IMG/VR virus record: IMGVR_UViG_3300046000_005999
Location: 1 to 23,626 of that record
Strand: one strand, 5' to 3'
Length of the DNA: 23,626 nucleotides
Source: a virus
Part shown: in pieces, positions 2,642 through 18,174 of the stretch
How positions within the stretch are numbered: position 1 is the stretch's first letter
Layout: each line of letters begins with the position of its first letter
Program-made: the position numbers and the translations under genes
The notes under the pieces: generated by a model
Database searches by the model: none
Told to the model about the DNA's origin: nothing
Seen by the model: only the letters and a program-made list of their open reading frames with translations

Positions 2642-4966
2642 TTATTGCGCCCCTTGTACGCCGATGGCCTTGCCGTTTTGGTCACGGACAATCATCTTTG
2701 GCGCGTTCATGTTGTTAGCGAGTTGACCGATCATTTGCAGCGTTTGCATGTGCATTTCTGCCAATCTGTCCATTGGGTTAGCGTTGCCCATTGCAATCTC
2801 GCCCTCCATCTCATTCATCAGTTCGTCGCCTGACGCTTCCTTGCCGATAGCAGCAACGCGCAGTTTCACCCGTGCGTCAAGTTCGGCCTTCCACTTTTCA
2901 AACTCAAGCTGCTGCGTGGCAAGCTGCATATCCATTGCTGCCTTGTGCATCTCGCGCTCTGAATCGCGCTGATCGTTCGCGGCTTGCAGTTCCAGGCTGG
3001 CCTGAATCTCTTGCAGCTTGGCAGTGGCTTTCAACTGCTCCACTTCACGCGACATTTGCGTTTCAGCTTGGAATTTCTGAATGTCGGACTGCGCATCGGC
3101 TTGGTGCTTTTGTGCGTCGGCCTGAATCTTCATCTGCTCCAACTGGATCGGCAGCGGTGTCTGTGGTTGCTGTGGTGGCGCACGGCGTGGGTCTTGCAGG
3201 AAGTTCTGCACATCCTTAAACCCTGCGTTCTCGATGATCTTGCTGCCGGTGTGGTACAGGTGTTGCGAGGTTGCAAGACCTACCGCCATGCCCTCTTTCT
3301 GCAATTGCGCGATCATCATCAATTGCTGCGCCTTTTGTTGCGTGTCGCCAGTGCCAAGACCGACATTTATCGTCATGTCGTAGCTGTCGCGCCATTCATT
3401 TGGGTCGTACTCCACGAACTCATCACGCAAACGAAATGCCAGCTTCTCCATCTCGCCATCCGTCAACACCTTCAAGATGCCTTGGAAGATGGGCTTGACC
3501 AGCGTTTCAGCGACGATACGGGCAATCAGTTCCACGCGCTGCATTGCGGCTGACATATCCATTGCGCGGCCCGTTGCCGTGTTGTTCATGCTGTCCGGGT
3601 TCAATCCTTGGCTGGTGCGTGATACACCCGTCCGGTTTTCCCGCATCGACTGCACATACTCCAGCATGGGCATTGAAGCGCCAGCAGAGAAAGGAATTAC
3701 TTGCTCAGTAATCGCGTTAATGTCCCTCTGACGAATAACGCCACCCGCCCTGCTATCCAGTAAATCATCAATGTTCGCAAGTGGACTCCAATTGGCATCC
3801 GTCAGCACCTTAGTGCGCGGGTTGTTGGTCAAGTACAGATTGTTCAGCGTCTGGCGCAATAGCTCGGTGTGCAGCTTTTGCAAGTCAGACACAGCATCTG
3901 CCATGCTCATGCCATCCCATCGGTGCGCATTCAGGATGGGGCTAGATGTGGCGATTGGCACATGGCTGCAAACTTCTTGCGAAAGAATCTTGTCCTGCAA
4001 GCGGTAGATGCACAGACGCTCTGCAATGCCATCACCGTCCGCATCCGCTAGCACGTACTCAATGCGCAGCCAGCCGGTAGCCAGCGCATCATCATCTTCG
4101 TCTTGATCGTCGTAGCCAACAATGGATTGCTGGTCTAGCTGGTTGATGTTGGATAGGCGTGTAGATGGATTGCCGATCTGGTCACTACCGCGCAACTCAG
4201 CCGCGGTAACGTCTTTGAAGCCCATCATCTTCAATTCTGTCAGCGTGACACGCATCAATCGTGCGACATAAGGGCAGTCTTGCAGCAGTGGGCTTGTCCA
4301 ATCCCGATCAATCAGCAAATCCTCTGGGGCGAACGCTTCGACCTTCACAATCGTGCGCTTCTCCGTCTTTTTCATGCGGCCGTTGTAGCCCATGACAGGC
4401 TGACCTGTGTAGGGATCAATCTGCGGCTGGCCTTGTTCGTCCAATACCGGTGCGGGTGATGCTTGCTCAATCGAAGAATCTTCAGACTCTTGCAGCATCA
4501 TCGCCAACATTTCTTCGCTGGCGCCTTTGAATGGCACACTGCTAACGGTTTCGCTGGTTTCCTTGCGCCACATCACCGCGCAATTGCGGATAGTCAGCAT
4601 GTCTTTCAGTGCGGTGTAGAGGACTAGAAAGCCGTTGTTTTGCTTATAGAAAACGTAGTTACAGGTATCTGTTGCTTGTTCAGCGCCTTTAACGTCTTTT
4701 GCCGTATTAGGCTCAAACGACACCGCTTTGTCGGTGCTGGTGAAGGTCTTGAGCAGTGCTGGAAGAATCCACTCGACGGAATCAGATACGTCCGATGCGA
4801 CGATCTGCGATTCACCATCAACCTCATTCCCGTATGGCTGGCGATAGTATTCTCTAAGGGATTGCTCACGCTCAGAACCTAATTGCCCATGGATGTAGTG
4901 AGAGGCTGCATCTTCCCGGCGTTGCAGGATTTCCAGCAAATCCTCGTCATCCATCTTGTCAGACAT
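2642..4966 (-). CDS. portal protein, 774 aa
   Basis: Large P22-type portal, forming the dodecameric vertex through which DNA enters and leaves the head. It follows terminase directly. An acidic N-terminus (MSDKMDDEDLLEIL) leads into the portal core. The segment from about 390 to 490, with RQRDINAITEQVIPF, NRTGVSRTSQGLNPD and NNTATGRAMDMS, is characteristic of these portals. From about 590 to 720 comes a long Gln/Ala/Glu/Lys coiled coil after a PPQQPQTPLP linker, matching the C-terminal barrel of P22-like portals. AAAGGGG seven bases before the ATG fixes the start. A CCTTTACC copy lies 42 bases upstream. No scaffold or coat gene follows, which is unusual. Confidence 0.9.
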   Translation of the reverse strand: MSDKMDDEDLLEILQRREDAASHYIHGQLGSEREQSLREYYRQPYGNEVDGESQIVASDVSDSVEWILPALLKTFTSTDKAVSFEPNTAKDVKGAEQATDTCNYVFYKQNNGFLVLYTALKDMLTIRNCAVMWRKETSETVSSVPFKGASEEMLAMMLQESEDSSIEQASPAPVLDEQGQPQIDPYTGQPVMGYNGRMKKTEKRTIVKVEAFAPEDLLIDRDWTSPLLQDCPYVARLMRVTLTELKMMGFKDVTAAELRGSDQIGNPSTRLSNINQLDQQSIVGYDDQDEDDDALATGWLRIEYVLADADGDGIAERLCIYRLQDKILSQEVCSHVPIATSSPILNAHRWDGMSMADAVSDLQKLHTELLRQTLNNLYLTNNPRTKVLTDANWSPLANIDDLLDSRAGGVIRQRDINAITEQVIPFSAGASMPMLEYVQSMRENRTGVSRTSQGLNPDSMNNTATGRAMDMSAAMQRVELIARIVAETLVKPIFQGILKVLTDGEMEKLAFRLRDEFVEYDPNEWRDSYDMTINVGLGTGDTQQKAQQLMMIAQLQKEGMAVGLATSQHLYHTGSKIIENAGFKDVQNFLQDPRRAPPQQPQTPLPIQLEQMKIQADAQKHQADAQSDIQKFQAETQMSREVEQLKATAKLQEIQASLELQAANDQRDSEREMHKAAMDMQLATQQLEFEKWKAELDARVKLRVAAIGKEASGDELMNEMEGEIAMGNANPMDRLAEMHMQTLQMIGQLANNMNAPKMIVRDQNGKAIGVQGAQ

Positions 4967-11406: not shown

Positions 11407-13634
11407 CACGCAGCCTCTAATTCTTCGGCTGCGAACAGTCCAGATGCTTGGTGCTCACGCGCTTCGCTCAGATTGCGCTTTGCCAACTCCCAATAGCTGC
11501 GCTTGAGTTCAGAGCCAACGAACTTGCGGCCCATCTCAATCGACACGTAACCCTCAGAGCCAATGCCGGTAAACGGGGAGAACACCAGATCGCCGGGGTT
11601 GCTCCAAAGCTCCATTGCTCGCTCAATCACATCAAGCTGCAATGGGCAGATATGGCGCTCGTCATCCGATGCCCTGGCGGTCTTATATTGCAGGGTTCTT
11701 GACGGGTTTATATCCATCCACACGGGTGACGCGTAGTTCTGCCACTTGCTGACCGGGAATGTTTCGTGCGTGTGGCTTATTGGCTCCATGTTTTCACCCG
11801 GCTTGCGAACCGTTACCAGGTAGTCGGCAATACCTTGGCGGCTCATGCTGGAATCTTTTCGGATTGTTTTATGCAGCAATCCCAATGCTTTTGTGCGCTG
11901 CATGGCTGTTACCGGGTCTTTCCAGATCGTCACCTTGGAGTGATAAATCCACCCCTCCTCGGTGAACATGCGCGTCAATTCGCCAGTGAAGTCATGCAAG
12001 CCAATAACGCCATCACGGAATTTACTAGTCTGCAAGTCCATGCAATGAAATGACAATAGGCGACCAGGCTTAACCACGCGCAGCAACTCTTTCACCAGAA
12101 AGCGGAAATGTTCATAGAACTCGCTGGTTGACTTGCAGTTGCCCATGTCGCGGTCGCTGTTGCTGTAGGTGTACAGACTGGCAAATGGCGGTGAAAACAC
12201 GCTGTAATCAATGGAGTTATCAGGCATTTCCCGCGCCACTTCTACGCAGTCGCCCAAGTGAACCATCCAGCCTTCGCCTTGTGCTATATCGCGCTTGTAT
12301 TCGCTCTTTTCCATTGTTGCCCCTTTGATTTTTTGTTGAGTGAGTTCGCGCATGTGGTTGACCATGCTCTGCGCCATGTCGTCAGCCTGTGACTGCTTGC
12401 GCTCTAAATTTGCTTTGACTGCGCCTTCTGATTCAGCCGATACCAGATGCACATTGACAATCTTGTGTTGACCAAACCGGTAGCATCGGCGAATGGCTTG
12501 GTAGAATCTCTCGTAAGAGTCATCCAATCCAGCGAAAACCATATCGCTGCAATGTTGCCAATTCATGCCCATCCCGCAGATCGAAGCCTTGGAAACCAGT
12601 ACCCGGCGCGATCCATGCGTGAAAGCCATCACAGCGCGTTCTTTTTCGTCCAGCGTCATTGATCCAGTGACTTCGATTGCGTCGGGAATGGCGGCAGTCA
12701 GTGCTTTTGATTCGTCATTCAGGTGGCACCAGACGATTGCAGGCCGGTTATGACTGTTGACCAAATCAGCCGCCAGCTTGATGCGCTCGTCCAGGCTCTT
12801 GCGTTTAGCATCGCGGCGCTCTGTCAGGGTTTGCGCCAATCCTGCGAATAGCTGACCATCCAGCGCCTCGTTAGACTCCACAATATGCTCGTGCATTTGC
12901 AGTCCCGGTAGGACGTAGCGCGAACCATCAAAGCCAAGATCAGCAGGGTTGCGAATGCAAATGGCCCACGTACTCATCCACTCCCAGAAGCGCGTCTTGC
13001 CGTGGCCTTTGAGCCGCCATTGCGATGTGTCCCCGCCGTCATGCACGAAGTACATTGCCAGCATTTCAACCGCAGTCATCACGCCCAAGAACTCAGCTTG
13101 ATTGCCAAGCTCCATGTGATCGTTGGGCGATGGTGTAGCGGTGCAGCTCAGTTTGTACGGAGTGCGCCGAAACATCTCAATAATGAGAGCGCGTGTTTTG
13201 CCTGTTTGGTTTTTCAGGATGGATGATTCGTCCAGCACCACGCCCACGAACTCGTCGGGGTTGAAGTGTTCCAGCATCTCGTAATTGGTGATGACAATCA
13301 TCGTGCCGGACTTAATATCCTCGGGCTTGCGGCAATATTGAATGTGAATGCCGAACTTGGCAGCTTCTTCAACTGTTTGCTGGGCCACGCACAAAGGCGC
13401 TGCAATCAACACCATGCCGCCAGTATGCTCAGACACTTGACGCGCCCACTCGGTTTGCATTGCAGTCTTGCCAAGCCCTGTATCCGCGAAGATCGCAGCA
13501 CGGCCACGCTTGCAAGCCCATTCAACAATGGACGATTGAAAGTCGAATAGGTGATCGCCTAGCTCGTTTGGCTCGAAACCAGTCTCAATGTTCTCTGATG
13601 ATTTGGCATCAATGAATGATGCGTAATCGTTCAT
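11406..13634 (-). CDS. fused SNF2-type helicase / DNA methyltransferase
   Basis: Residues 1-430 form a superfamily 2 helicase: DTGLGKT (51-57) Walker A, LDES (134-137) in place of DEAH, TATPSPND (165-172) motif III, and RRCYRFGQ (382-389) motif VI with arginine fingers. Residues about 445-720 form an amino-methyltransferase: GDCVEVAREMPDNSIDY, SPPF (481-484) as catalytic motif IV, and SPFTGIGSEG (686-695) as the SAM-binding motif I. The order IV then I marks the beta class, and SPP-type motifs are frequent in N4-cytosine enzymes, though N6-adenine is not excluded. No nuclease is visible. It overlaps both neighbours (ATGA upstream, TGATG downstream). Self-methylation of phage DNA is the likely role. 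Confidence 0.9.
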   Translation of the reverse strand: MNDYASFIDAKSSENIETGFEPNELGDHLFDFQSSIVEWACKRGRAAIFADTGLGKTAMQTEWARQVSEHTGGMVLIAAPLCVAQQTVEEAAKFGIHIQYCRKPEDIKSGTMIVITNYEMLEHFNPDEFVGVVLDESSILKNQTGKTRALIIEMFRRTPYKLSCTATPSPNDHMELGNQAEFLGVMTAVEMLAMYFVHDGGDTSQWRLKGHGKTRFWEWMSTWAICIRNPADLGFDGSRYVLPGLQMHEHIVESNEALDGQLFAGLAQTLTERRDAKRKSLDERIKLAADLVNSHNRPAIVWCHLNDESKALTAAIPDAIEVTGSMTLDEKERAVMAFTHGSRRVLVSKASICGMGMNWQHCSDMVFAGLDDSYERFYQAIRRCYRFGQHKIVNVHLVSAESEGAVKANLERKQSQADDMAQSMVNHMRELTQQKIKGATMEKSEYKRDIAQGEGWMVHLGDCVEVAREMPDNSIDYSVFSPPFASLYTYSNSDRDMGNCKSTSEFYEHFRFLVKELLRVVKPGRLLSFHCMDLQTSKFRDGVIGLHDFTGELTRMFTEEGWIYHSKVTIWKDPVTAMQRTKALGLLHKTIRKDSSMSRQGIADYLVTVRKPGENMEPISHTHETFPVSKWQNYASPVWMDINPSRTLQYKTARASDDERHICPLQLDVIERAMELWSNPGDLVFSPFTGIGSEGYVSIEMGRKFVGSELKRSYWELAKRNLSEAREHQASGLFAAEELEAA

Positions 13635-14143
13635 TGCACACCGCCAGATTGGAAAAAATTACCATACTGGTTGGCTACAGAAGCAATGTAGGCAACGTGT
13701 GCATCTTGCGGAGTTTCGAATAATCCTATGTATTTCCTAACCCCATCAACACGCCCCGATGCAACCCATTTTTTGGCTCTTTTATGGAAGCTGACGCCCT
13801 TAAATCCAGATGCATTGCTTCTTGTTATTCCGACATTCGCCATGTTTTGCGATCGTGTAGCTAGTCGCAAATTGGATAGCTTGTTATTGCCTTTTGCGCC
13901 ATCAACATGATCTATTTCTAAATCAGTGTCGCCATGATGGATGGCCCATGCAATCCTGTGGGCTGAGTACATTTCTCCTGCAATTGCTATGCGCACATAC
14001 CCAGACTTGCAGGTAGACCCGGCAATAGACCCCTTCCTTGCTCTATTGCTTAATGTTTTTGCCCAATAAAAAACGCCAGACTTACAGTCGTAGTCAAGCA
14101 GTTTTTTTAAATAATCAATGTCTGGTAAAATTTTCTTACTCAT
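13631..14143 (-). CDS. HNH homing endonuclease with AP2 domain (copy 1)
   Basis: A 170-residue free-standing endonuclease. HRIAWAIHHGDTD, EIDHVDGAKGNN and LSNLRLATRSQN (about 64-105) form the HNH fold, with the conserved His of DHVDG. SGFKGVSFHKRAKKW to YIGLFETPQDA (about 115-150) forms an AP2-type DNA-binding domain. The start at 14143 has AAGGGA nine bases upstream; a longer reading is unlike the family. Unlike its neighbours it is set off from the gene upstream by 37 bases, but its stop overlaps the helicase start by ATGA, so it joined the operon without breaking it. It is a paralog of the plus-strand copy at 15620. Confidence 0.9.
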   Translation of the reverse strand: MSKKILPDIDYLKKLLDYDCKSGVFYWAKTLSNRARKGSIAGSTCKSGYVRIAIAGEMYSAHRIAWAIHHGDTDLEIDHVDGAKGNNKLSNLRLATRSQNMANVGITRSNASGFKGVSFHKRAKKWVASGRVDGVRKYIGLFETPQDAHVAYIASVANQYGNFFQSGGVQ

Positions 14144-14180
14144 AATCAAGTTCCCTTTGGTTCTGATAGAAGGCCCTGGA

Positions 14181-14402
14181 TCAACGCGAATTGACCGGGG
14201 TTTTTGCTTTTGGCGCAATGCCAAAAAATCGAAAGTAGTGCTGACCTAGCACTGGCTTCTTGGTGATAGTCCATCCCATCTCACGCAGATCAGACAACCG
14301 GCGCGTTGGGGTGGTTGTGAATGCCATCTCAATCATTTCCAAGCAAGTGACACCGCGTTTACGTTGCAACAGCTTTCCGATGGTTTCGCATTGGGTTTTC
14401 AT
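14181..14402 (-). CDS. small winged-helix-like protein, 73 aa
   Basis: Reads like a small winged helix: LLQRKRGVTCLEMIEMAF (about 11-28) as helices one and two, then TTPTRRLSDLREMGW (about 30-44) as recognition helix, and GQHYFRFFG as wing. Such proteins are common in early phage operons near cro. The ATG overlaps the previous stop (ATGA). Ligand and target are unknown; the HNH insertion directly follows it. Confidence 0.65.
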   Translation of the reverse strand: MKTQCETIGKLLQRKRGVTCLEMIEMAFTTTPTRRLSDLREMGWTITKKPVLGQHYFRFFGIAPKAKTPVNSR

Positions 14403-14662: not shown

Positions 14663-14893
14663 TCAGCCTTGAATCTTTGCGTTTTCGCAACTATCTTTAT
14701 CGGAGTGGCGATTAACCTTTGGCATGATCTTCTTGGAGGCTTTTAGCTTTCCTTGAGTCAAATGCTCAATTTGCAGTTGTCGCAGTGCTGGTGGGTGTTC
14801 TCCCCATCCAGAAATGCTGTGCTGCTTAATGCCAAGTGCTGCACCCAATTTGGCTTGGGTGAGGTAGTGTTTTATTGCGTCTGATGTTTTCAT
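14663..14893 (-). CDS. cro: Cro-like repressor
   Basis: First gene of the leftward operon, read divergently from cI. The HTH is clear: SDAIKHYLTQAKLGAALGI (about 4-22) then QHSISGWGEHPPAL (about 24-37), with the Cro/YdaS pattern in which a single asparagine- or glycine-rich turn precedes the recognition helix. The ATG at 14893 lies three bases from the palindromic operator, whereas a longer upstream reading would cover the operators. The Lys-rich C-terminal tail (KLKASKKIMPKVNRH) is unusual in length. It would bind the operators beside it and block cI transcription. Confidence 0.8.
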   Translation of the reverse strand: MKTSDAIKHYLTQAKLGAALGIKQHSISGWGEHPPALRQLQIEHLTQGKLKASKKIMPKVNRHSDKDSCENAKIQG

Positions 14894-14895
14894 AC

Positions 14896-14910
14896 CCCGA
14901 TTGTATCGGG
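14896..14910. promoter_or_regulatory. operator 1, perfect 15-bp palindrome
   Basis: CCCGATTGTATCGGG: six-base arms CCCGAT/ATCGGG about a three-base centre. It overlaps the presumed cro -10. Confidence 0.7.
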
Positions 14911-14912
14911 TT

Positions 14913-14924
14913 TCTGATATCAGA
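14913..14924. promoter_or_regulatory. operator 2, perfect 12-bp palindrome
   Basis: TCTGATATCAGA, self-complementary. Its half site TCTGATA shares GATA with the CCCGATA half of operator 1. The centres are about 15 bases apart. Confidence 0.65.
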
Positions 14925-14964
14925 TAAAGATGATTGCGAAAAATCAATGACCCATACTGTCAAT

Positions 14965-15294
14965 ATGGAAAACATAGGCCAACGAATCAAAAGACTGAGA
15001 ACAGAGCGCGGATTGCGCCAAAAGGACTTAGTTGCCTCTGTGGATGCTGTCAAACAATCCACGCTATCAGCTATTGAGTCTTTAAATCTGGATTTTGGAG
15101 CTGTTGCCTTGATGCAGTTTTCCAGGGCGTTGATGGTGTCGCCTGAATACATCGTCTATGGGGGAGAGGAAGAAGATATGGGAACAGTAGAAATCGTCCA
15201 ACTATTCAAAGCATTGCCAGCACAAGAGCGCGAGATGCTTCTTAAAACTGCTCGGGCATTGCTGCCAAACACATCACACATCAAAGCGGCATAG
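14965..15294 (+). CDS. cI: CI-like prophage repressor, short form
   Basis: A 109-residue XRE-family repressor: MENIGQRIKRLRTERGLRQK, then DLVASVDAVKQSTLSAIES (about 21-39) gives the helix-turn-helix, with SPEYIVYGG ending the domain near 67. The C-terminal 40 residues (EIVQLFKALPAQEREMLLKT) form a helical dimerisation segment. There is no S24/LexA-type peptidase, so RecA-stimulated self-cleavage is not expected. The start at 14965 fits the family; ATG at 14947 would add six residues. No Shine-Dalgarno sequence is visible before either, so a leaderless or short-leader transcript is possible. It would hold both arms silent in the lysogen. Confidence 0.8.
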   Translation: MENIGQRIKRLRTERGLRQKDLVASVDAVKQSTLSAIESLNLDFGAVALMQFSRALMVSPEYIVYGGEEEDMGTVEIVQLFKALPAQEREMLLKTARALLPNTSHIKAA

Positions 15295-15408
15295 TCGCCA
15301 CCGCGCAAATTTATCAGTTCAAGGGTCTAGGCAGCACCCGGAAGTAGTAGCTGATTCCAGCCCTGTAAAAAATATTTTTAATTTATTTCGCCTTTTTACG
15401 CCTATTCG
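15295..15408. other. AT-rich leader upstream of rightward promoter
   Basis: No gene is seen here. The tract at about 15365-15400 is very rich in A and T (runs of AAAAAATATTTTTAATTTATTT), as in UP-elements or bent DNA upstream of a strong promoter. No terminator for cI is evident. Confidence 0.4.
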
Positions 15409-15437
15409 TATCGCATTCCCGATATCTGATGTATGAT
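15409..15437 (+). promoter_or_regulatory. second operator and rightward (pL-like) promoter
   Basis: TATCG (15409) and CGATA (15420) form an inverted repeat, and CCCGATATCTGAT at 15418-15430 joins the half sites of both switch operators. TATGAT at 15432-15437 is a good -10; no clear -35 is found. The arrangement mirrors lambda oL/pL, with cI lying between the two operators. Confidence 0.55.
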
Positions 15438-15443
15438 TCAGCC

Positions 15444-15491
15444 ATGCCAGCAGAAATGCAAAGCAAGGTAGCTCGAAAGAGATGGCCGTGA
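15444..15491 (+). CDS. possible 15-aa leader ORF
   Basis: ATG at 15444 gives a 15-residue basic peptide (MPAEMQSKVARKRWP) directly after the promoter, with no clear ribosome site. It is arginine/lysine-rich like the start of lambda N, but far too short. It may be a leader peptide, a remnant of an interrupted gene, or chance. Confidence 0.25.
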   Translation: MPAEMQSKVARKRWP

Positions 15492-15611
15492 GGTAACCCC
15501 GCCACCTGAAGCCGGGGATAGATAGCGAAATGAATACAAGGTCGCTTAGTTACCTACTCGTGAGAGTAGGAAAACACAAGGGTTGTGACAGTGCCCTTCT
15601 GTTTTACAGAA
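15492..15611 (+). ncRNA. structured leader with nut-like element
   Basis: Three hairpins follow the promoter: CCCCG/CGGGG (15497-15517), CCTACTC-GTGA-GAGTAGG (15553-15570, perfect seven-base stem with a GNRA loop), and TTCTGT/ACAGAA (15597-15611). CGCTTAGTTA at 15543-15552 lies directly before the second hairpin and resembles boxA before a boxB hairpin, which has a GNRA-like fold in lambdoid nut sites. The leader may thus carry an antitermination signal. An intron origin is the rival reading. Confidence 0.45.
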
Positions 15612-15619
15612 AGAAGTCA

Positions 15620-16105
15620 ATGCTTACACAAGAGAGACTCAAATGTGTTTTGTTGTACGACAAGACAAACGGATGTTTTACATGGATTGGGGCCATGAAA
15701 AACTACAAGCAATACGGATCAATTGCAGGGACAACTAAAGCAAGCGGTTATCGGCAAATAAAAGTTGATGGAATGTTCTATCTAGCTCATAGGCTTGCAT
15801 GGCTGTATGAGTTTGGCGTCATCCCGGATCATCAGATCGACCACATAGATGGTGACAAATCAAACAACTCCATAAGTAACTTGCGGGATGTTACTAGCGC
15901 TGTAAACCATCAGAACAAAAAAGCCGCCAGAACTGATAACGCAACTGGACTGCTTGGGGTTTGCAAAAAGCGCAATAAATATCGGGCGCAAATTTGCATT
16001 GAAGGACGAGTCATGCAGATAGGGGTTTATGAGACTGCTCAATTGGCTCACGAAGCATATATAGCAGTGAAGAGAGTAATTCATGCAGACGGTAACACCA
16101 TATAA
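15620..16105 (+). CDS. HNH homing endonuclease with AP2 domain (copy 2)
   Basis: A 161-residue protein with the same build as the minus-strand copy at 13631: HRLAWLYEFG, QIDHIDGDKSNN and ISNLRDVTSAVN form the HNH fold (about 58-100), and TGLLGVCKKRNKYRA to IGVYETAQLAHEAY (about 110-148) forms the AP2-like domain. ATG at 15620 is preferred (AGAAAGAAG upstream); an ATG at 15530 would add 30 unlike residues that cover the leader hairpins. It sits alone between structured RNA segments, which fits a mobile element lodged in an RNA region. It is unlike its neighbours, lacking coupling to any gene. Confidence 0.88.
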   Translation: MLTQERLKCVLLYDKTNGCFTWIGAMKNYKQYGSIAGTTKASGYRQIKVDGMFYLAHRLAWLYEFGVIPDHQIDHIDGDKSNNSISNLRDVTSAVNHQNKKAARTDNATGLLGVCKKRNKYRAQICIEGRVMQIGVYETAQLAHEAYIAVKRVIHADGNTI

Positions 16106-16120
16106 GACCGCTGCACTGTT

Positions 16121-16132
16121 CCTAGCAATAGG
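16121..16132 (+). other. GNRA-capped hairpin
   Basis: CCTAGCAATAGG folds as CCTA/TAGG with a GCAA tetraloop, directly after the HNH gene and two bases before the 19-bp inverted repeat. Confidence 0.45.
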
Positions 16133-16133
16133 A

Positions 16134-16221
16134 GCATCAAGAAATCTGACAGGGTTAATCAACCTGAGAAAACGGCTCCTAAGTTACCCAATCACGGGCG
16201 CTCTGTCAGATTCCTTGATGC
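16134..16221 (+). repeat. 19-bp inverted repeat
   Basis: GCATCAAGAAATCTGACAG (16134-16152) matches the reverse complement of 16203-16221 in 18 of 19 positions, closing a 50-base loop that contains a GGTT/AACC hairpin. It would make a strong RNA stem or a protein site. AGTTACC recurs in the loop (16182) and in the leader (15548). Confidence 0.65.
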
Positions 16222-16434
16222 GTGAGTAATTTTTAACCAATCTGCCCTTCAGTCTGTGGATATTCCGAAGGCTCATGCATCAACCTTTTCGATTGCCAGC
16301 AGCGCCCGAGTGTCAGCACCTTGGGCAAAACAAACCTAGTTTGATGCGGAAAAGTACGCTGCTTTATGCGACCTGCTGGCAATCAATTCAATCCCGCACT
16401 TGATGCGGTTTTTTTACGTCTAAAGGGGTTCGAT
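16222..16434 (+). ncRNA. structured RNA ending in terminator, candidate regulator
   Basis: No gene here, but many pairings: GATTGCCAGCAG (16291-16302) is perfectly complementary to 16373-16384; GCATCAA (16277) can pair with TTGATGC at 16341 or at 16400 in the terminator; GCCC/GGGC encloses GTG/CAC near 16304-16326. The nine-base TTGATGCGG occurs at 16341 and 16400. Competing pairings suggest an attenuator or small RNA rather than a fixed fold. Confidence 0.45.
16394..16415 (+). terminator. intrinsic terminator
   Basis: CCGCA (16394) pairs with TGCGG (16404-16408) over a CTTGA loop and is followed by seven T. Placed between the rightward promoter and its gene chain, it is like lambda tL1. Confidence 0.8.
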
Positions 16435-16611
16435 ATGACTCAAACAGATTTCGCCATTAACGCAATCCGCAAGATCGAAACGCTAACTTGCGACGACTTG
16501 CTAGACCTGTTCAATGTGATCGCATCGAAGATGGTTGATGCGGGTTTTAGCGAATTGGATGTGCAAATGGTTGACGAAGCAAACGGTTTTATTTGTGGAG
16601 AAAAAGCATGA
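16435..16611 (+). CDS. small early protein, 58 aa
   Basis: First gene after the terminator. AAAGGGG, seven bases before the ATG, fixes the start MTQTDFAINA. Acidic helical protein with two helices (AIRKIETLTCDDLLDLFNVI, about 9-28) and no known motif. Its stop overlaps the next ATG. Function unknown. Confidence 0.6.
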   Translation: MTQTDFAINAIRKIETLTCDDLLDLFNVIASKMVDAGFSELDVQMVDEANGFICGEKA

Positions 16612-17393: not shown

Positions 17394-17623
17394 TGACCAT
17401 CGGAACAATGTGTGCAGACGCTGAAAAAGTAGTGTCAGAGCGCATCAACCGCAGCGCAGGCCAGCACCTTCGCGCCATGCGTGAACAGCACAACGCAGAC
17501 ACGCCAAGCGATGCAGACGTATATGCGATGTGCATGGAGTCGGACACGGCCTACCACTTCGCTGCATGGATTTGCAAACAGGCCGGTATTAACTTCCCAC
17601 CACAACAGGAGAACCCACGATGA
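17393..17623 (+). CDS. hypothetical protein, 76 aa
   Basis: Start at 17393 (MTIGTMCADAEK) chosen because AAGGGGG lies seven bases upstream and the ATG abuts the previous stop; an upstream ATG would add 20 shadow residues. Helical, with CADAEKVVSERINRSAGQHL and WICKQAGINF. No family is recognised. Its stop overlaps the erf start. Confidence 0.55.
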   Translation: MTIGTMCADAEKVVSERINRSAGQHLRAMREQHNADTPSDADVYAMCMESDTAYHFAAWICKQAGINFPPQQENPR

Positions 17624-18174
17624 AAGCTATAGCAGCAGCATTCATTGCCGCCAAGAAAGCATTTGGCCCCGCACTGAAAGACAAGACGAACCCAGCATTT
17701 CGCAGCAAGTATGCCGACTTAGGCGCTTGCATTGACGCGGTGGAAGGCGCATTGCTGGACAACGACATCGCACTTATCCAAGAGACTTTCGACGATGCCA
17801 CTGGCGTGACGGTTGAGACTGTTTTCCTGCATGTATCGGGTGAGTCAATGCGATGCGGAAAATTCCACGTTCCAGCCGCCAAGCAAGACCCGCAAGGCTA
17901 CGGATCGGCGCTTACCTATGCTCGTCGGTATAGCTTGATTACGGCCTGCGGAATAGCCCCGGAGGATGACGATGGGCAAGCAGCTTGCAAGCCACAACGC
18001 GCAGCACCAGACGTTGCGGCGATCCTGAAAGGTATCAGCAACAGCGCGACATTAGCACTGCTGAAAACCAACTTCACCCACGCAATGAACATGCTGGACA
18101 ACGTACACCACGAATCATTGATAAGCGCGAAAGACAAGCGCAAGGCCGAATTAACTCCGAAAGAAACAGTATGA
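17620..18174 (+). CDS. erf: Erf-type single-strand annealing protein
   Basis: Phage recombinase that anneals complementary strands, used for circularisation and recombination. NPAFRSKYADLG (about 24-35) and YGSALTYARRYSLITACGI (about 94-112) are diagnostic for the ERF family. The C-terminal part (about 125-184) is variable. AGGAG eight bases before the ATG fixes the start. Directly followed by the SSB gene with an ATGA overlap, the usual pairing of annealing protein and binding protein. NinG in the other arm would resolve its products. No 5'-3' exonuclease of lambda Exo type is seen. Confidence 0.92.
   Translation: MKAIAAAFIAAKKAFGPALKDKTNPAFRSKYADLGACIDAVEGALLDNDIALIQETFDDATGVTVETVFLHVSGESMRCGKFHVPAAKQDPQGYGSALTYARRYSLITACGIAPEDDDGQAACKPQRAAPDVAAILKGISNSATLALLKTNFTHAMNMLDNVHHESLISAKDKRKAELTPKETV

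Follow-up and report, generated by a model that had tools for sequence, protein, structure and literature searches.

An uncatalogued structured RNA predicted in an early operon leader of a temperate phage of Burkholderiaceae type

Results

A structured RNA at the end of an early phage leader

Judged from covariance searches and comparative folding, the element termed H3 at the 3′ end of an early phage leader belongs to a previously uncatalogued RNA family carried by many Burkholderiaceae phages. The window analyzed here is the whole 23.6-kb virus record (IMGVR_UViG_3300046000_005999, 23,626 nt). The 924-nt stretch from 15,492 to 16,415 is the untranslated start of an early operon, comparable to that of lambda pL, which runs rightward in a temperate phage of Burkholderiaceae type; the stretch makes up most of a ~1-kb untranslated leader between a CI-like repressor gene and an Erf/SSB operon. 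The leader was assigned to a pL-like operon because the cro-CI-leader-recombination region mirrors the cro-cI-pL-recombination region of lambda; the leader is followed by small rightward genes and then by the Erf (17,620-18,174), SSB and exonuclease genes. A preliminary description had read the region as a rightward leader with hairpins, an HNH gene and a downstream terminator. In this respect it was confirmed: the leader is long and structured, heads an early operon, contains an HNH gene and ends in a terminator, and the hairpins, repeated words, HNH ORF, terminator and 15-codon ORF were all found where the description had placed them. The main features are listed below.

14,663-14,947, minus strand: Cro-like repressor gene of the leftward operon (Pfam P22_Cro, E 2e-15; phrog_409)
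14,965-15,294, plus strand: CI-like HTH repressor gene (phrog_4, E 2e-9; phrog_2967, E 3e-9)
15,295-16,434: untranslated stretch, broken by the HNH gene
15,421-15,437, plus strand: putative promoter/operator of the leader, GATATCTGATGTATGAT (-10 element TATGAT, 15,432-15,437)
15,444-15,491, plus strand: 15-codon ORF, not conserved in relatives
15,553-15,570, plus strand: GNRA hairpin CCTACTC-GTGA-GAGTAGG, 7 bp
15,620-16,105, plus strand: HNH endonuclease gene (Pfam HNH_3, E 8.5e-17; phrog_99, E 1.3e-54)
16,117-16,136, plus strand: GNRA hairpin TGTTCCTA-GCAA-TAGGAGCA, 8 pairs including G-U
16,134-16,221, plus strand: hairpin H1 (arms 16,134-16,152 and 16,203-16,221, one mismatch)
16,215-16,283, plus strand: hairpin H2 (TTGATGCGTGAG / CTCATGCATCAA)
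16,286-16,387, plus strand: H3, member of the structured RNA family, ending 6 nt before the terminator
16,394-16,415, plus strand: intrinsic terminator CCGCACTTGATGCGG followed by seven T residues (stem 16,394-16,408)
16,435-16,611, plus strand: first gene downstream of the leader (ORF; 59% identical to a protein of L113)
17,620-18,174, plus strand: Erf-like single-strand annealing protein gene (Pfam ERF, E 9e-18; phrog_2324)

A consensus promoter scan found no promoter for the leader; the putative promoter string GATATCTGATGTATGAT is identical, and at the same position, in the related locus L210. Pfam and PHROGs searches with the product of the first downstream gene gave no match.

The strongest signal in the leader is the fold of 16,100-16,420, which contains H1, H2 and H3 and was missing from the preliminary description. 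This fold had a z-score of -4.7 and was 27 kcal/mol better than the shuffle mean; H3 alone (16,287-16,390) had a z-score of -4.8. H1 is one of only three such inverted repeats across the whole window. H2 overlaps the 3′ arm of H1, so that the outer parts of the two hairpins are mutually exclusive. Comparative support was sought for both and none was found, and no relative of H1 was detected. A pairing of the terminator 3′ arm with AAGACCGC (16,105-16,112), which is present in the minimum free energy fold, was likewise unsupported by relatives.

Detection of the family and its predicted fold

A covariance model (R1) was built from the leaders of six other phages, with the window left out. In this held-out test, R1 matched the window at 16,287-16,386 with an E-value of 3.7e-11, and it recovered 65 members at E < 3e-4. 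A further model, R2, scored the window copy at 58.5 bits. A degenerate pattern describing the 3′ core only (AANMACRCTGCTTYATGYG) matched at least 120 viral stretches. When 115 of these matches were examined, TTAGC was present upstream in 105 and a closing stem with a score of at least 8 in 106; neither feature was part of the search pattern. Two weak model matches (L004, E 0.006; L165, 6,007-6,107) were excluded from the members. The parts of the window copy are as follows.

16,291-16,302 / 16,373-16,384: P1
16,305-16,311 / 16,319-16,325: P2, loop GTCAGCA
16,357-16,359 / 16,368-16,370: P3, loop TGCTTTAT
16,315-16,318 / 16,360-16,363: predicted loop contact, AGCA with TGCT

In the family consensus, P1 has 8-16 bp of variable sequence, P2 ends in GG-GUUAGCG-CC, and an A-rich joiner leads to P3 (CRC-UGCUUYAU-GYG). 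In alignment A8, 97.2% of cells were paired and two-sided changes occurred at 21 of the 23 pairs. Its covariation score was 0.757, compared with 0.192 for shuffled alignments and at most 0.129 for slid structures, in an alignment that was fitted to the model structure and so favors that structure. Alignment A9, with 80 sequences and the loop contact included, gave similar values (0.681, compared with 0.17 shuffled and at most 0.16 slid). Covariation was found at all 20 pairs of P1 and P2. Five or six pair types occur at most P1 positions, a diversity that, judged from the alignment, fitting alone cannot produce. Covariation thus showed the predicted fold of H3 to be a compact three-way junction closed by P1 and carrying hairpins P2 and P3. 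The window copy belongs to the family both by its R1 match and by its loops, GTCAGCA and TGCTTTAT, which are compatible with a mutual contact.

The P2 and P3 loops are predicted to contact each other. On inspection of the genome members, the AGC of the P2 loop was able to pair with the GCU of the P3 loop, and in the window the loop CAGCA allows full Watson-Crick pairs in the contact. In a test scan that required GGC in the P2 loop and allowed either C or T as the partner base, GCC was found in all 10 distinct examples, two of which were genome members. Among the 80 aligned members, 72 had AGC/GCU, eight had GGC/GCC and none had a mixture, the eight GGC cases representing a few lineages only. 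The pair was scored as covarying in A9. The weight of this evidence lies with the GGC set and the genome members, because the T of many AGC members was fixed by the search pattern.

Distribution and comparison with catalogued RNAs

More than 100 IMG/VR contigs carry family members, as do seven of the genomes sampled. With an Acidovorax genome as the reference point, R2 matched 6 of 401 genomes of its GTDB family, 1 of 399 of its order and 0 of 369 of its class; within one genus, 4 of 6 genomes were matched. Several genomic copies adjoin phage genes (terminase, CI, RecT/RecE, integrase). Most virus records carry one copy and a few carry two. Paired copies, 260-520 nt apart in one noncoding region, were observed in L221, L233, L271, L274, L282 and L301.

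Rfam 15 gave no family at the gathering threshold for the window and five relatives, and at 11 further loci only tRNAs and a separate neighboring RNA were matched. BLAST of the leader against phages and plasmids returned only HNH gene fragments and short chance matches. With the leaders of relatives and the consensus hairpin as queries, no named phage was matched by BLAST, a method that is weak for RNAs of this type. Nearly all relatives retrieved by gp742 and by Erf lacked the RNA in the model search. The first downstream protein as query gave a single false match, on the wrong strand (L002). An exact pattern run against GTDB contigs gave 41 chance matches, in none of which the closing stem was present; true members in genomes were found later by the model.

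Genomic contexts of family members

In the window, in L164, L165 and L168, and in the unrelated prophage L348, the RNA lies in an early leader directly before a terminator. The order in the prophage (CI, RNA and terminator, RecT, RecE) parallels that of the window (CI, RNA and terminator, Erf). A GC-rich terminator-like hairpin was also found immediately 3′ of most genomic copies, among them L343-L345 and L349-L351, with short T runs in some. For the family as a whole, a terminator-like hairpin lay no more than 70 nt downstream in 6 of 96 cases and upstream in 6 of 94, and 1.6% of random stretches had one. Because the downstream and upstream counts are alike, the terminator is not a defining partner of the RNA, and its neighborhood was not upheld as a general rule.

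A tRNA gene begins 3-9 nt downstream of the RNA in 7 of 79 members (L234, L302, L244, L338, L356, L357 and L363); on the upstream side the count was 0 of 77, and among random stretches it was 3 of 240. In one phage lineage, ~45 loci (roughly half of the members listed) carry the RNA within an operon, flanked by a helicase gene and a phrog_13900 gene, and a start codon follows 36-44 nt downstream. The genes downstream of the RNA are of many kinds.

Other RNA-related elements were observed at these loci. In L338 (1,044-1,492, minus strand) and L357 (7,034-7,606), a permuted tmRNA of betaproteobacterial type lies in a phage tRNA array and directly follows the new RNA and a tRNA-Met. Further long hairpin modules precede or replace H3 in L003 (3,980-4,330), L165 (5,979-6,195) and L004 (4,290-4,760, minus strand); some contain stretches resembling a tRNA T-arm, they are reshuffled between phages, and they have no Rfam match. 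A Betaproteobacteria-1 RNA (RF02932; L272, 4,468-4,583) lies ~130 nt downstream of a family member in the same phage. A putative RtcB-like RNA ligase ORF, recognized by eye, lies near a tRNA-Pro and an RNA copy in L145 (1,470-2,660).

Discussion

Proposed action of the RNA

H3 may be a stand-alone noncoding RNA that is encoded in the phage leader and most likely acts in trans, a reading that we hold with about even confidence. A promoter near 15,432 would transcribe the leader RNA, and the 3′ part of this RNA (16,286-16,387) would fold into the compact three-way junction. The terminator at 16,394-16,415 would probably set a defined 3′ end; in relatives, the end could be set by the 5′ end of a tRNA a few bases on, or the RNA could lie within an operon. 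The early transcript would yield a discrete noncoding RNA that binds a component of the Burkholderiaceae host. The partner would more likely be a protein or an RNP than an mRNA, because both conserved loops are engaged in the fold. RNA polymerase passing the terminator would continue into the Erf/SSB operon. Trans action is suggested by the mostly single copy of the RNA, its variable place and the recurrence of a terminator or a tRNA at its 3′ end, since a cis-acting operon element should stay at the heads of operons. These arguments are drawn from genomic context, and the context also holds points against them: the half of the listed members that lie in mid-operon, shortly before a start codon, would also fit a cis element, and terminator-like hairpins are no commoner downstream than upstream.

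The main rival is a cis antiterminator comparable to put of phage HK022. In such a case the RNA would bind the elongating RNA polymerase, which would then pass the terminator just downstream, so that the Erf/SSB operon would be turned on with no need for an N protein. The put RNA, ~70 nt long with two stems, is found in early leaders and works without phage proteins; each early operon has one copy close to the promoter, putL or putR (PMC9378689). H3 is similar in being a structured RNA of ~70-100 nt located in a lambdoid early leader upstream of terminators (PMC9378689), which makes put the nearest known system in position and possible action. The early-leader copies directly before a terminator, including that of the unrelated prophage, argue for this reading. 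So do the constant location of the RNA on the operon strand and the result of Pfam and PHROGs searches, in which an N-like gene was recognized nowhere between CI and Erf. However, many copies lie in mid-operon or before tRNAs with no terminator nearby, and the other early operon has no second copy, whereas HK022 has both putL and putR. One copy per operon, as in put, was not upheld by the copy counts; unlike put, H3 is mostly present once per genome and occurs also in tRNA arrays and in mid-operon. The folds differ as well, put consisting of two successive stem-loops and H3 of a three-way junction with a loop-loop contact, and R2 did not match the complete HK022 genome in a comparison made in this direction only. 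We consider a put-like action of H3 possible, although rather unlikely.

More doubtful still is that the RNA serves as a processing, stability or translation element of its own messenger, for example as a cleavage signal or a protective barrier. The short distance to the gene start in the ~45 mid-operon loci and the tRNA genes that begin a few nucleotides downstream would agree with such a role. However, conserved loops held in a loop contact exceed the needs of a cleavage site, and the genes that follow the RNA are of many kinds.

HNH gene, nut and intron readings of the leader

The gene at 15,620-16,105 scored 61 bits for the HNH_3 domain (gathering cut-off 24.8) and appears to be an ordinary free-standing homing endonuclease gene of the HNH_3 / phrog_99 type. 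It is absent, and H3 is kept, in the same-position leaders of L003, L163, L164, L165 and L168. These leaders have CI upstream and small genes downstream, followed by Erf where the fetched sequence extends that far. In L210, whose promoter region is the same as that of the window, the HNH gene of the leader belongs to a different family (phrog_3377; 3,781-4,239) and is unrelated to the window gene. It seems that HNH genes have landed more than once in leaders of this type. Since related leaders retain the RNA whether they have no HNH gene or one of another kind, we read the gene as a selfish mobile passenger, and the RNA is not built around it. The cro operon of this phage contains a second phrog_99 HNH gene (HNH_3 plus AP2; 13,631-14,224, minus strand).

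The preliminary description had also proposed that the leader contains a lambda-type nut site, which would lie at 15,543-15,570 and be bound by an N-like protein. Like lambda nutL, the leader of the window is situated between CI and a recombination operon; the word CGCTTAGTTA stands immediately 5′ of the hairpin CCTACTC-GTGA-GAGTAGG at 15,553, and boxA-like words (CTC(T/A)TTAAMA, 9-10 of 12 positions) occur in L003, L164, L165 and L168. However, CGCTTAGTTA agrees with boxA (CGCTCTTTAA) at only 6 of 10 positions and is not conserved in relatives, and the best boxA-like word in 15,430-15,622 was equalled in 27% of shuffles. Thus, unlike nutL, the window has no above-chance boxA-like word, a lambda-type arrangement of boxA followed by a boxB hairpin was not found in it, and the conserved element is a different fold. 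A nut site is very improbable here.

The same description had suggested that a self-splicing intron surrounds the HNH gene and that the 15-codon ORF might be a truncated exon. Two GNRA hairpins with stems of 7 bp or more do occur in the window (0.034 expected per shuffle); these long hairpins, at 15,553-15,570 and 16,117-16,136, flank the HNH gene and were found in no relative. The words GGTAAC (15,492 and 16,091) and GTTACC (15,549 and 16,183) gave a p-value of 0.0008 as fixed words; equally many such words of some kind occurred in 14% of shuffles, and with the freedom to choose the word taken into account these repeats are unexceptional. The proposed search with group I covariance models was run as part of Rfam 15, which includes group I and II models, and the window matched no family at the gathering score; cmscan of 15,280-16,480 found no family at E-values up to 10, intron families with their conserved catalytic core included. 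No empty site was found. ATG at the position of the 15-codon ORF opens frames of 4-11 codons in L003, L163, L164, L168 and L210; the ORF is not conserved, which argues against a truncated exon. With the whole conserved fold lying downstream of the HNH gene and not depending on that gene, a group I or II intron is scarcely credible.

Relation to known phage RNAs and significance

In lifestyle, the nearest known RNAs are ROOL and GOLLD, which are structured RNAs of phages and prophages, of unknown function and often near tRNA genes (PMC12286853). They differ from H3 in being far larger and in forming separate Rfam families, and their Rfam models gave no match at the family loci. H3 is regarded as a new family within a broadly known kind of RNA because the tests for put, ROOL and GOLLD gave no match. 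The stable RNAs C and D of phage T4 are likewise phage noncoding RNAs of unknown function that lie within a tRNA cluster. To our knowledge, phage noncoding RNAs are understood in very few cases, and we know of essentially no factor-free RNA antitermination other than that of put.

The analysis corrects the intron reading of the leader and indicates that HNH genes repeatedly settle in leaders of this kind. It describes a compact fold of ~100 nt with strong covariation in P1 and P2 and a contact between loops that was tested by scanning, present in more than 100 phage contigs, a few prophages and the leader studied here, and absent from Rfam 15. Tentatively, the family may represent either a new class of early, discrete RNA of Burkholderiaceae phages, a three-way junction with kissing loops that acts on a host machine of this bacterial family, or a second factor-free cis antiterminator, unrelated to put; we find such an outcome quite conceivable, if somewhat short of probable. 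H3 provides a defined, mutable target for studying the effects of phage RNA on the host.
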